Assembly (NCBI RefSeq): GCF_000223905.1
Contig: NC_015948.1
Coordinates: 992,001 to 1,056,000, forward strand
Direction of reading: 5' to 3'
DNA length: 64,000 nt
From: Haloarcula hispanica ATCC 33960
GTDB lineage: Archaea > Halobacteriota > Halobacteria > Halobacteriales > Haloarculaceae
Part shown: positions 36,489-41,783 of the stretch, one piece after another
How positions within the stretch are numbered: position 1 is the stretch's first letter
Layout: the number at the start of each line of letters is the position of its first letter
Translations under genes and position numbers: made by a program
Notes under the pieces: model-generated
Told to the model about the DNA's origin: nothing
The model's input: only the letters and a program-made list of their open reading frames with translations
Databases searched by the model: none

Positions 36489-38549
36489 TCAGTCGTCGAC
36501 TGAGGCCTGTTCGGACTGTCCGGTTTCGGATCCGGAATCGTATCTCACCTCCATGTACAGCAACGCGAAGATGGTGAGTGTTGCGACGGTCTGTACGGCA
36601 GCGGTCATCGGCGCCAGCGGAGCGAACATCGCTGCTCCCGCAGCCACCAGTAGCCCGGCGCGACTCGGAATCCTGAGTTGGCCAGAGAAGTAGTTGACAA
36701 TGGCTGCCACGGCGGCGACGAGACCGATTCCCACGACGACGAACGTAATCGGTGTCGCCGGAACCGACCAGAACAACAGGCTATCGTTGACGACGAAGAT
36801 GTACGGAAGAACAAACAGCGGCGCCCCGAGCACGAGCGACTTTCCGGCAGTCCGCCAGAAATTCCCGCCTGCGACCCTGGCTGTGACGAGGCAGGCGATG
36901 GCAACCGGCGGCGTCAGCGCCGAGAGAATCGCGAAGTAGAACACGAAGAAGTGCGCGGCGAGCAGGTCGACACCGGCCTCGGTCAGTGCCGGTGCGATCA
37001 GCAGCACGGCCGTGATGTAGGCCGCGACGGTCGGCATCCCGAGACCAAAGAGAAGCGCCGCGATCATCGCGAACATGAGCAACAGCGCGAGCACGCCTCC
37101 CGAGAGTTCAACGAGGCTGGAGGCGAACACCTGCGTGAACCCGGTGAGGTTCAACACACCGACGAAGATGTTCATGACGCCCAGCGACACCGCAATCGGG
37201 GCTGCGTTTTCCATCCCGCGGCCCAGGCCGTCCATAGTGTCCACGAAGAAGTCGCGGATTCCGTAGCCATCGCGAAAAAAGATCCCCTGGACGAACGCGG
37301 CCGGGAACGCGGACATTATCGAGAGGAACCCTGCGTACAGCGGATCGTACAGGAGAACGACCAGTGCGTACAGGAGAACGGCCAGCGGGACCCACAGCGC
37401 GAGCCCCTCGACGAGCAGGTTACGAACCGATATCTGACCGAAGGAAACAGCGGTTGTCGTTCGGCCGAAGATCCTATCGAGTGCGTTTTTCCGATCCCTG
37501 TCGACCGTCTCTACGTCGGTCAGTTCTTCCTCGTCAATCTCGCTCGTGAGCCCTTCTTTGACGGTTGTCAGATGAACACCGATAGCGACCGTTCCGTAGA
37601 ACAGGAGTGCCGGCAGGAACCCGATGACGATGATCTTCAGGTAGCTCGTCCCGGTGATCTCGGCCATTATGAATGCCGCTGCACCCATGATCGGTGGCAT
37701 AATCTGGCCGCCGCTGGAGGCCACCGCCTCGTAGGCCGCTGCGGTATCTCTATCGAGCCCGTGACGCTTGAGCAACGGGATGGTAAACGCGCCCGTCGTC
37801 GCCGCGTTGGCGGCCGCGCTGCCGTTGACCGACCCCATACCCATGCTCGCGACCGTCGTCATCTGCGCCAATCCGGACCGGACCCGTTTGCCGATCAGCG
37901 TTCCGACCTGGACGAAATACTCCAGCGCGCCGTACGCTTCCAACAGCCCCGCGAGGATCATGAAGATAATAATAAACGTCCCCGAAACCTCGACAATGAC
38001 GCCGAAGACGCCGCTGCCGAACTCAACTGTCAGACCCTGCACCAGTCGTTCGGCCTGAACTCCATTGTGGTTCAAAATACCCGGGAAATACGGGCCATAC
38101 AGCGCATAGACAAGGCCAGCTACGCCGACCAGCGACAGCATCGGACCGTAAACCCGCCTGCAGACATCCAACAACAGCAGGATGATCAACAGCCCCATGA
38201 ACAAGTCGAGGTCGGTGTATATCCCGAGTTGCTCGTAGACGATGCGGTTGAAGGCCGTAAAGAGGTAGACGGCGACGACGGCCGAGAGAGCGGCCTCAAA
38301 TAGCGTCGCGTAGTTTCCGAACCGCTCCCGGCGCGTCTCGGGTTCGGGGGTATACGCGAGGACAGCCGCCCCGACGAGCATGAATCCGAGGTGGGCGATC
38401 TTGTGTTGGTCCTGTTCGAACGGGAACAGCTGGGTGAACCAGAGGTGATAGACCGTCGAGGCGACTCCCAAGGCTATCAGGAACCCGTACTTGGCCATGC
38501 GTACCCGGGACGGGTCGACCCAGCTCCCGGTTGTGTGTTCCCCCGTCAT
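36489..38549 (-). CDS. TRAP transporter, fused DctQM permease (TAXI type)
   Basis: The 686-residue protein has around 16-18 membrane helices. An N-terminal small-permease part is fused to a DctM-like large permease with segments such as GAFTIPLLKRHGLDRDTAAA and GLGMPTVAAYITAVLLIAPA. Fused QM permeases belong to the TAXI branch of Na+-coupled TRAP systems. The gene for the matching binding protein lies 45 bases upstream on the same strand. Acidic C-terminal tail in the cytoplasm. Substrate not predictable, although TAXI systems often carry dicarboxylates or amino acids. Confidence 0.9.
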   Translation of the reverse strand: MTGEHTTGSWVDPSRVRMAKYGFLIALGVASTVYHLWFTQLFPFEQDQHKIAHLGFMLVGAAVLAYTPEPETRRERFGNYATLFEAALSAVVAVYLFTAFNRIVYEQLGIYTDLDLFMGLLIILLLLDVCRRVYGPMLSLVGVAGLVYALYGPYFPGILNHNGVQAERLVQGLTVEFGSGVFGVIVEVSGTFIIIFMILAGLLEAYGALEYFVQVGTLIGKRVRSGLAQMTTVASMGMGSVNGSAAANAATTGAFTIPLLKRHGLDRDTAAAYEAVASSGGQIMPPIMGAAAFIMAEITGTSYLKIIVIGFLPALLFYGTVAIGVHLTTVKEGLTSEIDEEELTDVETVDRDRKNALDRIFGRTTTAVSFGQISVRNLLVEGLALWVPLAVLLYALVVLLYDPLYAGFLSIMSAFPAAFVQGIFFRDGYGIRDFFVDTMDGLGRGMENAAPIAVSLGVMNIFVGVLNLTGFTQVFASSLVELSGGVLALLLMFAMIAALLFGLGMPTVAAYITAVLLIAPALTEAGVDLLAAHFFVFYFAILSALTPPVAIACLVTARVAGGNFWRTAGKSLVLGAPLFVLPYIFVVNDSLLFWSVPATPITFVVVGIGLVAAVAAIVNYFSGQLRIPSRAGLLVAAGAAMFAPLAPMTAAVQTVATLTIFALLYMEVRYDSGSETGQSEQASVDD

Positions 38550-38594
38550 GGCTGGCGTTGATGGGGTGGGCGGACGAGAGACGGGTCGCTCGCG

Positions 38595-39761
38595 TTACCC
38601 CTCATACTCCTCAAGTGTGGTCAGTCCGTCCTTCCAGAGGTCCTGCTCCTTGTAATACTTCTCAGCGCCGGGATGGACGGGTGCGTTCGGCGAGGGGAGT
38701 ATGAATTCCTGCGCGAAGTCCGGACCGGCGCGAGAGAGCACTGAACTCGCCTCACGGACCGCGTCGATGTCCTCCATGACGGTACGGACGAACTCATAGC
38801 CCAACTCCTCAGATACCTCGGCCGGGAAGATAGTTTCATAGCCGACGCCAACTGCCGGAATGGAGTCCATTCGAATGTCCTGCCCGTCCCAGAGGCCGGC
38901 CGGCGTTTCGATGTACGTGTAGGGCAGATCGGAGTTGGCTAAATCTGACTCGTCGAACTCCCAGTTGACGACCGCGACGTCGGCCTGTGCGCCGGCCTCC
39001 TGCGCCCACCCGGTCAGTACTTCACGGCTGACTCCGTAGACCATCATCATATCGAGACGGCCGTCAGCGAACTGTGCCCCCTGGTCTCCCCAGCTCATCG
39101 ACTGGAGGTCGTACTTGTCCTCGACGTTGTCGATCCCGGACAGTCGGAACCCGTCAAGGCCCGCGAAGTAGTTCGTCCCGCCGCGCTGACCGAACGCCAT
39201 CGAGACCGACCCGTCTTGGGGAATGTCCGACACCGACTCGATGCCTTCGAGTGCATCGTCAGTCCGCCTGACGAGGTAGTACTCCAGAGTCATGAACGGT
39301 AACACCTGCGTCATCGTCTTCCCGACCGGTTCCCCGTACGGGTCTCCGCCGCTGTTTGAGCGCGCGACTGCCCAGTCGGTACTCTGGGCGATATCGATGT
39401 CTCCCTGAGCGATCAACCGAGGGTTTGCGGCGGTCCCGCCGGTCGTCTGGGCGCTCATGCTGATGTCGTCGGACTTTTCCGAGAGCAGCTGTGCCATCGC
39501 TACCCCCGACGCGTGAGTCGCCGTCTCCGGCCCTGACGTTCCAACTGTCCAATTTGTACTGCCGCCACTGCCGTCGCTGCCGCCGCTGTCTCCACCACTG
39601 CCGTCGCTGCCACTGCCGTCGCTGCCACTATCCCCGTCACCACCAGCGCCGCTACCGCCGTCTCCACTACAGCCAGCGAGACATGCGAGGCCAGCGGCAC
39701 TGACCGTTTTCAAGAAGCTACGCCGCTCGGAAATCGAACCATCCTGATCGTTTCTGAACAT
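38595..39761 (-). CDS. TAXI family TRAP solute-binding lipoprotein
   Basis: The 388-residue protein starts with a twin-arginine signal (SERRSFLKTVSAAGLACLAGC) whose lipobox LAGC supplies the anchoring Cys. A long Gly/Ser/Asp linker follows, and then the TAXI binding domain (NWTVGTSGPETATHASGVAM through the C-terminal YKEQDLWKDG). It captures the substrate outside the cell and hands it to the permease encoded downstream. A minus-strand TATA-like element (AATATAGA region, about 39795-39805) lies upstream. Confidence 0.92.
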   Translation of the reverse strand: MFRNDQDGSISERRSFLKTVSAAGLACLAGCSGDGGSGAGGDGDSGSDGSGSDGSGGDSGGSDGSGGSTNWTVGTSGPETATHASGVAMAQLLSEKSDDISMSAQTTGGTAANPRLIAQGDIDIAQSTDWAVARSNSGGDPYGEPVGKTMTQVLPFMTLEYYLVRRTDDALEGIESVSDIPQDGSVSMAFGQRGGTNYFAGLDGFRLSGIDNVEDKYDLQSMSWGDQGAQFADGRLDMMMVYGVSREVLTGWAQEAGAQADVAVVNWEFDESDLANSDLPYTYIETPAGLWDGQDIRMDSIPAVGVGYETIFPAEVSEELGYEFVRTVMEDIDAVREASSVLSRAGPDFAQEFILPSPNAPVHPGAEKYYKEQDLWKDGLTTLEEYEG

Positions 39762-40424
39762 TATCTAAGCTACAACTATGCTGTCAACCAATCTATATTT
39801 AAATGTTACTGCAAATATCTTTATCATACAGACATCGGCTGCGGAAACAGACAACGCACCCCGAGCAAATTTTCAAATCTCGGGCAATAGTGGCCACTCA
39901 GCCGCATTATCGAGACTGTGAAAATCTGAGAGATGTGACTCAACTCGACAGCCCTACTGTTGGGAATACCACTATCAACGGTTCCCGAAGATCCGGCTAA
40001 CAGGGTACCATCACGGAGAAATTCGTCTCAGTGACACAGCAGAGCCACTGTGGCTCTGTCCGTATCATGTCAAATATTGCCACTAGTAGACTCGAAATGT
40101 ACGCCCGGAACACTAACGTCCGGCATCATCCTCGGCGGTGTGCCACGTCAGCCGGCAAACCCTCGTGCCGGGCGGGTCGCCGGATACGGCGACCGATTGC
40201 GCGAGCGGTGGTAGCCGCGAGCGCGGGTGATTATGGCGTAATCACCGAACGCCCAGACGGTGCAACCGTCTGGCGGGTCGTCGATAGACGACCAAGTGCG
40301 GTATGAACCGCGGTCATGTCGCGTGCCCGGGTTCTCCGGGTCGTCATCGTCCCGGTGACGGGTCTCTGTCGGGGATTGAAGGCACGCACTAGCAGTTCGC
40401 CGGTCGCACACCTAAGGGTGACGT
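39762..40424. other. 663-base gene-free stretch before the reductase gene
   Basis: The left 280 bases are AT-rich and carry the promoter of the TAXI operon (minus strand); nothing else is evident there apart from scattered T-rich runs. From 40040 to about 40365 the sequence is a string of hairpins described separately. Open frames on both strands in the right half are Arg/Pro-rich and broken by the inverted repeats, so I do not accept them as genes. Confidence 0.6.
40040..40365 (+). ncRNA. Candidate structured RNA: string of about ten hairpins
   Basis: Perfect or near-perfect hairpins follow each other at 40040-40058, 40105-40123, 40152-40171, 40175-40194, 40199-40224, 40226-40246, 40253-40273, 40276-40293, 40298-40311, 40326-40340 and 40351-40362, mostly three to seven bases apart. 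Two have GATA loops, one a GTGA (GNRA) loop. The one at 40199-40224 has tandem G-A mismatches that are stabilising only in plus-strand RNA. A weak TATA-like CAAATATTG lies at 40070-40078. It does not show the conserved cores of RNase P or SRP RNA. Transcription is not proven. Confidence 0.4.
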
Positions 40425-41783
40425 TCAGACGGCGTAGTCGTCCTCGCGCAGTTGGACGTACTTGCCGTTGCGGTAGGAGAACTTCCCCCACTTGTACCCG
40501 AGGACCATCTTAATGCCGTTGAGGCCGCCACGGAGCGCCGCGTCGGCCTTGATGCCACGGGCGTCCATCAGGTCGTTGGCGGTGGTAAAGGCCCGGTCCC
40601 AGTCGCCGGGCCGCCAGTCCCGGACCATGTCCGCGAAGGTAACGTTCCGGAGGATTTCGTCGCCGATGGCGTCGTGCCAGGCGTCGTTGTACCGTTCGAG
40701 GCGGTCGTTCGCGGCGAGGCGACCGGCTATCTTCCCGGTGCGAACGGCGACGTGGTCGCCGCCCTCGTGGAACGCCGAGGTGGTCCCCATTGCCCCGCCG
40801 GCCACAGCGATGCCGGCACCCACCGGGGACTCTATCGGTCGGGTCGAGGAGATCGGGTACGTCTCCGTCCCTTTCGATTTCCCGCGGTCCTCGACGAGCG
40901 GGAAGTCCTCGAGATCGTACGCCTGGAACTCCTGTTCGAGCAGTCGCTCGATGTACTGCCGGCCCTGCGGGATGCTCTCGTCGCTCTCTCTGAGCAGGTC
41001 CCACTCGCTGCGGTCGTAGGCGTCGATGTCCAACCCGATGGGCATCGTGAGGCCGATGCGGGCGACGGGGGCGTCGTTCGGGAAAATCCACGGATACGCC
41101 GTGTGGCCGGGCATGATGCCCCACCAGAACTCGATGAACTCCGGCGTGAACAGTTCCTCGGGCATCCGTCGGTGCTCCTGATAGGCGATGTGGTTGGCCT
41201 TGTTCGAGGGCATGATGTCGGCCATCGTCTGTCCGGCCGGGAGGACCTGGTCGAGCGTCCCGCCAGTGACGGTCCGCTGTGGGCCATCCGCGAGGATCAC
41301 GTACTCAGCGGCGATATCTTCACCGTTGGCCAGCCGAACGGTGTGTCGTGGCGAACTCCCCAGGTCGGTCTCGACGCCGGTGACGCTGACGCCGACGCGG
41401 TAGTCCGCGCCCGCTTCCGTCGCCCGTTCGCGGAGCCAGTCGTCGAACCGCGCCCGGTGGAACGTGATGCCGAAGCCGTCGGCGCTGGCGCTGATACCGG
41501 TCTCCGTGAGCGTCATCTCCGTCGAGGGGCCGTAGAACTTCGCCCCGTCGAGTTCGCTCAGCACAACATCCTCGGGGAACTCCGACCGTGGAATGTCCAT
41601 GATGTCGAACCAGTAATCGAGCAGCCCGGCGGCATCAGTCGAGTCCGGCCCCGCCCCCTCGCGGTCGGCTCTGGGGACCCCCTTTTCGAGAAGGACGGCG
41701 TCGGCCCCGTGGTCGGCTGCAGCCTCGGCCGCCGACGACCCGGCCGGGCCACCACCCACAATGGCGACGTCTACGTGTTCCAT
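40425..41783 (-). CDS. Geranylgeranyl reductase family flavoprotein
   Basis: The 452-residue protein begins VDVAIVGGGPAGSSAAEAA, the FAD-binding fold. It contains the family segments WGIMPGHTAYPWIFP and, near the end, VAGGAMGTTSAFHEGGDHVA. The family saturates isoprenoid chains, including those of archaeal lipids. Haloarchaea carry several paralogues. This one is longer than the lipid-specific enzyme and differs in its N-terminal substrate region, so the substrate could be a lipid, menaquinone or retinoid precursor. Monocistronic; its 3' end abuts the hairpin string. Confidence 0.8.
   Translation of the reverse strand: MEHVDVAIVGGGPAGSSAAEAAADHGADAVLLEKGVPRADREGAGPDSTDAAGLLDYWFDIMDIPRSEFPEDVVLSELDGAKFYGPSTEMTLTETGISASADGFGITFHRARFDDWLRERATEAGADYRVGVSVTGVETDLGSSPRHTVRLANGEDIAAEYVILADGPQRTVTGGTLDQVLPAGQTMADIMPSNKANHIAYQEHRRMPEELFTPEFIEFWWGIMPGHTAYPWIFPNDAPVARIGLTMPIGLDIDAYDRSEWDLLRESDESIPQGRQYIERLLEQEFQAYDLEDFPLVEDRGKSKGTETYPISSTRPIESPVGAGIAVAGGAMGTTSAFHEGGDHVAVRTGKIAGRLAANDRLERYNDAWHDAIGDEILRNVTFADMVRDWRPGDWDRAFTTANDLMDARGIKADAALRGGLNGIKMVLGYKWGKFSYRNGKYVQLREDDYAV

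Follow-up and report, generated by a model that had tools for sequence, protein, structure and literature searches.

A hairpin string in Haloarcula hispanica very probably forms the linker of a minus-strand double H/ACA guide RNA

Results

Double H/ACA guide RNA gene on the minus strand

The string of hairpins found in the window, a stretch of 64,000 nucleotides of Haloarcula hispanica ATCC 33960 DNA, very probably belongs to a minus-strand H/ACA pseudouridylation guide RNA of the double-hairpin kind, in which it forms the linker between the two guide units, HP1 and HP2. The haloarchaeal double H/ACA guide RNA goes by the name sR-h45. The gene and its parts are as follows, with all coordinates numbered on the plus strand of the window.

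40411–40420, minus: predicted BRE/TATA box (CCTTAGG on minus), about 24–30 nt upstream of HP1
40098–40387, minus: double H/ACA guide RNA, HP1 lower stem to HP2 ACA box (HP1/HP2 model matches, covariation, promoter)
40317–40387, minus: HP1 (alignment A2, pair counts, single rRNA match, ACA spacing)
40381–40387/40321–40327, minus: HP1 lower stem
40343–40354, minus: contains the HP1 K-turn GAUGA (TCATC on plus; GAG/CGATGA in the alignment)
40329–40333, minus: HP1 3′ guide AACCC
40317–40319, minus: HP1 ACA box
40175–40316, minus: spacer with six hairpins (perfect or near-perfect stems, uninterrupted chain 40175–40311)
40298–40311, minus: spacer hairpin 1, adjoining HP1
40276–40293, minus: spacer hairpin 2, B type (C-G to U-A on both sides)
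40253–40273, minus: spacer hairpin 3, in an A-type position, fully paired
40226–40246, minus: spacer hairpin 4, B type
40199–40224, minus: spacer hairpin 5, A type, with a UC/UC internal loop on minus, which is GA/GA on plus
40175–40194, minus: spacer hairpin 6, B type, adjoining HP2 (C-G to U-A on both sides in Haloarcula-type relatives)
40098–40174, minus: HP2 (alignment A1, pair counts, single rRNA match, R1 model match)
40168–40174/40102–40108, minus: HP2 lower stem
40157–40164, minus: HP2 5′ guide GAGGGU(UU)
40125–40131, minus: HP2 K-turn GAUGA
40111–40117, minus: HP2 3′ guide GUUAGUG
40098–40100, minus: HP2 ACA box
40315–40388, minus: covariance-model match R2, covering HP1
40095–40175, minus: covariance-model match R1, covering HP2

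The true gene probably starts at 40388–40392 and ends at about 40095, its exact ends being inferred. Both HP1 and HP2 have the same anatomy, namely a lower stem, a guide pocket, an upper stem, a K-turn (GAUGA opposite CxGA), which in archaeal H/ACA RNAs is the L7Ae site, and an ACA box, which on the plus strand appears as a TGT preceding each conserved domain.

When 55 diverse sequences were aligned, nine pairs were changed on both sides in each of the two units. The paired cells amounted to 99.4% for HP2 and 82.1% for HP1, the latter figure being lowered because some of the drawn HP1 pairs were mis-specified, and none of 500 shuffles reached as high in either case. In well-defined stems read on the minus strand, the non-Watson-Crick cells were 27 G-U vs. 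7 A-C in HP1 and 14 vs. 3 in HP2. The K-turn pattern CxGA/GATGA of HP2 was found in 126 of 148 sequences, with the GA and TGA columns invariant in the alignment. The ACA box lay 14 nt from the 3′ guide of HP1 in 131/148, and 16–18 nt from that of HP2 in 130/148, with ATA in most of the others; the HP2 distance is slightly long against the 14–16 nt criterion, perhaps through two bulged U residues.

Searching the organism's own 23S rRNA with each guide pattern gave a single match, GGGUU-UA-GAC for HP1 and UAAC-UAUG-ACCCUC for HP2, from which Psi2621 is predicted as the target of HP1, and Psi1956/Psi1958 as those of HP2. The 5′ guide of HP1 in Haloarcula pairs weakly with its target, being AAUC vs. 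AGUC in most genera. Cbf5 and Nop10 were both found to be encoded by the same genome. A pseudoknot between the invariant segments AACCC and GGGTT was considered and rejected, each being explained separately as a guide segment; as both are invariant, they allowed no covariation test of it.

Upstream of HP1 on the minus strand, 55 diverse loci shared an A-rich peak at −32 to −30 and a TATA-like peak at −26 to −23. Peaks of these two kinds at these positions are the layout expected of an archaeal promoter. Taken together, the K-turns, ACA boxes, guide-target matches, G-U vs. A-C counts and promoter all fit the minus strand, and the RNA is therefore assigned to it; a plus-strand reading of the whole element was dropped, as the K-turn, ACA, guide and promoter signals are all on minus.

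The TATA box sits directly past the stop codon of a gene for a geranylgeranyl-reductase-family oxidoreductase (40425–41783, minus). This gene stops about 30–40 bp before the RNA gene begins and commonly neighbors it in Haloarcula relatives.

Conservation across the haloarchaea

In a DNA search the region was present in 35 of 41 relatives, with almost invariant ends and a middle of variable length. At least 120 stretches were matched by a pattern scan of GTDB genomes, and the matches listed were almost all haloarchaeal (Haloarcula, Haloferax, Natrinema, Halorubrum, Halobellus and others). Three matches, in Verrucomicrobiales, Burkholderiales and Lachnospiraceae, were judged to be chance, and the one inspected (L050) was unrelated sequence; two loci with a wrongly placed 3′ domain (L068 and L157) were excluded from the counts.

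In the class-wide search with covariance models, HP1 and HP2 were each detected in 78 of 79 genomes, covering 41/41 genera. They lay on one contig and one strand with HP1 first in all 78 genomes, with −3 to 197 nt (median 38) between them, and in 5 of the 78 the RNA was practically spacer-free. HP1 directly abuts HP2 in a divergent haloarchaeal-order genome (G034:C16:30679-30831), where the model scores were weak (43 and 35 bits); this may be the ancestral spacer-free form.

The covariation and class-wide conservation of HP1 and HP2 bear out the view of the first-pass annotation that a structured RNA is encoded here, and show it to be conserved. That it is neither SRP nor RNase P RNA also held, since the Rfam search of the region returned no covariance-model match at the gathering score; Rfam 15 seems to lack the haloarchaeal double H/ACA RNA.

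Modular hairpin chain of the spacer

The stem-loops exist beyond chance, as both strands of the hairpin region originally noted folded better than all 100 dinucleotide shuffles (z of −6.0 on plus and −5.0 on minus). The annotation had counted about ten consecutive hairpins, six of which are chained in the spacer, while most of the others belong to HP1 or HP2 and the hairpin at 40040–40058 lies outside the RNA. As described, GATA loops top two near-identical stems and a tandem G-A internal loop is present at 40199–40224; the GTGA loop at about 40352–40363 is also real, but forms part of the apical stem of HP1. No protein-coding signal was found, the spacer being 0 to 252 nt long in different relatives and keeping no reading frame over its variable length.

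Of 133 distinct spacers compared, 105 were at least 30 nt long, and for these the median MFE z was −4.2. The number of hairpins, 0 to about 10 depending on species, followed spacer length (r = 0.98), with roughly one for every 23 nt. The chain in several lineages is built from a repeating unit, made up of an A-type hairpin (GCC-UC-stem-loop-stem-UC-GGC), a joint of 4 nt, a B-type hairpin with perfect pairing and a C; L063 holds about five such A+B units and L052 three, and the window carries a three-B chain. The units of the window are present in L009 in a changed order (compared with L001), and L010–L012 retain only two hairpins between almost identical flanking domains, so whole spacer units have been lost, gained and moved.

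Covariation within the spacer was thin, with two pairs changed on both sides among eight close Haloarcula-type relatives, whose single-sided stem changes give G-U on the minus strand. Over all spacers, G-U outnumbered A-C on minus by 20 to 8, some of the A-C being chance cross-pairings. The tetraloops read on minus were UNNC in 52 of 122, including 28 UNAC, as compared with 18 GNRA if read on plus. The strand signals nevertheless conflict in the spacer, where the 2 × 2 internal loop of distinct A-type hairpins is a minus-strand UC/UC in 19 cases vs. GA/GA in 2, while the other features point to minus. Read on plus, the UC/UC loop would be a stable tandem GA. Additional guide units inside the spacer were considered and rejected, as a pocket plus a K-turn would not fit into the A/B hairpins (about 14–26 nt).

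Cassette insertion site at the 3′ end of the gene

In many genomes the 3′ end of the RNA gene (minus ...GUUAGUGUUCCGGGCGUACAUUUCGA) is tandemly duplicated on its downstream side, and the duplicated sequence recurs as a cassette site with the consensus gaaATGTaCgCCCGGAACACTACCGGgCGAgnaTCTACTAGTAGgctcggtggAagTgaAa, about 60 bp being conserved at the boundaries of each cassette. Allowing mismatches, the site was found in 7 of 41 relatives and in 28 of 194 genomes of the class (18/65 genera), and the backward control of this search gave no match. In genomes where both were located, 23 of 24 sites lay on the downstream side of the H/ACA gene, at most 12 kb away, and all had the same relative orientation. 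The sites are spaced about 0.25–3 kb apart, often 0.76–0.86 kb. Cassettes occupy the plus-side flank of loci L023, L024, L036, L053, L058, L060, L074, L082, L095, L098, L109, L120, L125 and L132, and occur in genomes G065, G070, G082, G090 and others.

Many cassettes carry toxin-antitoxin-like pairs, namely a PemK/MazF-like protein with an HTH partner, Fic/DOC, or DUF5615 with DUF433 (examples at L098:2308-4650, L109:270-2898 and L024:2455-2955), and other cargo includes a citrate-type transporter (L023:2666-4612) and an amidohydrolase accompanied by an HTH regulator (L037). Some two dozen cassette proteins were examined, with no integrase among them. Tandem cassettes, of about 0.8 kb and longer, use the 3′ end of the H/ACA gene as a dedicated, integron-like site of insertion. 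The layout is similar to that of a chromosomal integron array, a likeness which is one of sequence layout and implies no attC status.

In the window, a TAXI/TRAP transporter pair (36489–40101) flanks the RNA gene on its insertion side. Positions 40062–40108 weakly resemble the cassette right end (13 substitutions in 47), and no left end was found in the window within 14 substitutions. Because of its location on the insertion side and the weak right-end match, the TAXI/TRAP pair may be old cassette cargo.

Discussion

The RNA described here had been proposed as new by the first-pass annotation, which it is not, as it corresponds to the haloarchaeal double H/ACA guide RNA of PMC2584109 and PMC4652768. 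Grosjean et al. 2008 predicted two H/ACA hairpins for Psi2621, Psi1956 and Psi1958, separated in halobacteria by a long spacer (PMC2584109). Carriers reported in the two papers are H. volcanii, Haloarcula marismortui, Halobacterium and Haloquadratum (PMC2584109, PMC4652768), of which Haloarcula marismortui is named as a carrier and H. volcanii listed as experimentally validated in PMC4652768. The RNA of the window has the same hairpins, order, targets and long spacer as this RNA, named HP1/HP2 or Hvo1/Hvo2 in the literature. The main texts of both papers describe only "a long spacer", whereas the present analysis shows it to be a modular hairpin array; the chain of ~23-nt hairpins as a spacer, and its range from 0 to about 10, are apparently new. 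Stems II and III of the Thermococcales three-hairpin H/ACA RNA (Pf7/Pab40) are stated to be homologs of HP1 and HP2 (PMC2584109). Unlike the haloarchaeal RNA, Pf7/Pab40 has adjacent hairpins, a third guide unit and no hairpin-array spacer according to the literature.

In the proposed mechanism, HP1 and HP2 would each fold as an H/ACA unit, bind Cbf5-Nop10-Gar1-L7Ae and pair with 23S rRNA, so that pseudouridine would form at U2621 via HP1 and at U1956/U1958 via HP2. By the names that the literature gives these sites, the regions proposed to be modified via HP1 and HP2 are the peptidyl-transferase-centre loop and helix 69. The self-folding linker would hold the two protein-loaded units apart and independent, without mispairing with them, while it expands, contracts and reorders in whole hairpin units. 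rRNA expansion segments likewise place fast-changing hairpins between invariant functional parts, an evolutionary analogy between unrelated RNAs.

The linker is probably a passive spacer. The main argument is that five genomes do without it, so it seems dispensable. If it were a mere spacer, however, a conserved UC/UC motif would not be expected. The array could thus be a functional module of its own within the H/ACA transcript, such as a protein-binding scaffold or a stability or processing element. The alternation of A and B units, the UC/UC loop kept although the flanking stems change, the strong folding of the spacer and the enrichment of UNAC among the UNNC loops on minus (28/52) favor such a module, but we regard it as unlikely given hairpin numbers that fall to zero, practically spacer-free RNAs in 5/78 genomes and a unit order that differs between relatives (L009 vs. 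L001). A dedicated module whose UC/UC loop (or GA/GA on plus) is bound by protein or belongs to a separate transcript, as a second, lineage-tuned role of the guide RNA, is a doubtful extension of the same idea, with a somewhat smaller chance.

The plus-strand structured or regulatory RNA favored by the first-pass annotation is very improbable, although the spacer hairpins do carry the tandem G-A signal behind it (19 vs. 2 distinct hairpins) and the spacer often has its lower MFE on plus. HP1 and HP2 read as H/ACA units on minus only, the promoter and the other spacer features, including the excess of G-U over A-C, also support minus, and no conserved promoter-like region was found on the plus side, as that flank is swapped between species. 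Hardly more credible, and if anything less so, is a DNA-level recombination array of attC-like hairpins. Hairpin units are indeed gained, lost and shuffled, and mobile cassettes adjoin the gene, but it is the 3′ end of HP2, outside the spacer, that holds the cassette sites, and not one cassette was found inside the spacer across about 150 loci.

The cassette insertion site may be more novel than the guide-RNA finding itself; the papers searched contained no description of such a site. Site-specific toxin-antitoxin cassettes are anchored at the 3′ end of the gene, and an RNA-modification gene thus also serves as a genomic docking site. For the haloarchaea, a near-universal RNA gene is now assigned a strand, a promoter, its parts and its predicted targets, and the covariance models of HP1 and HP2 detect it in nearly every haloarchaeon. 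As a guide RNA with frozen working parts and a variable hairpin chain between them, it offers a natural test of how much linker variation an RNP tolerates.
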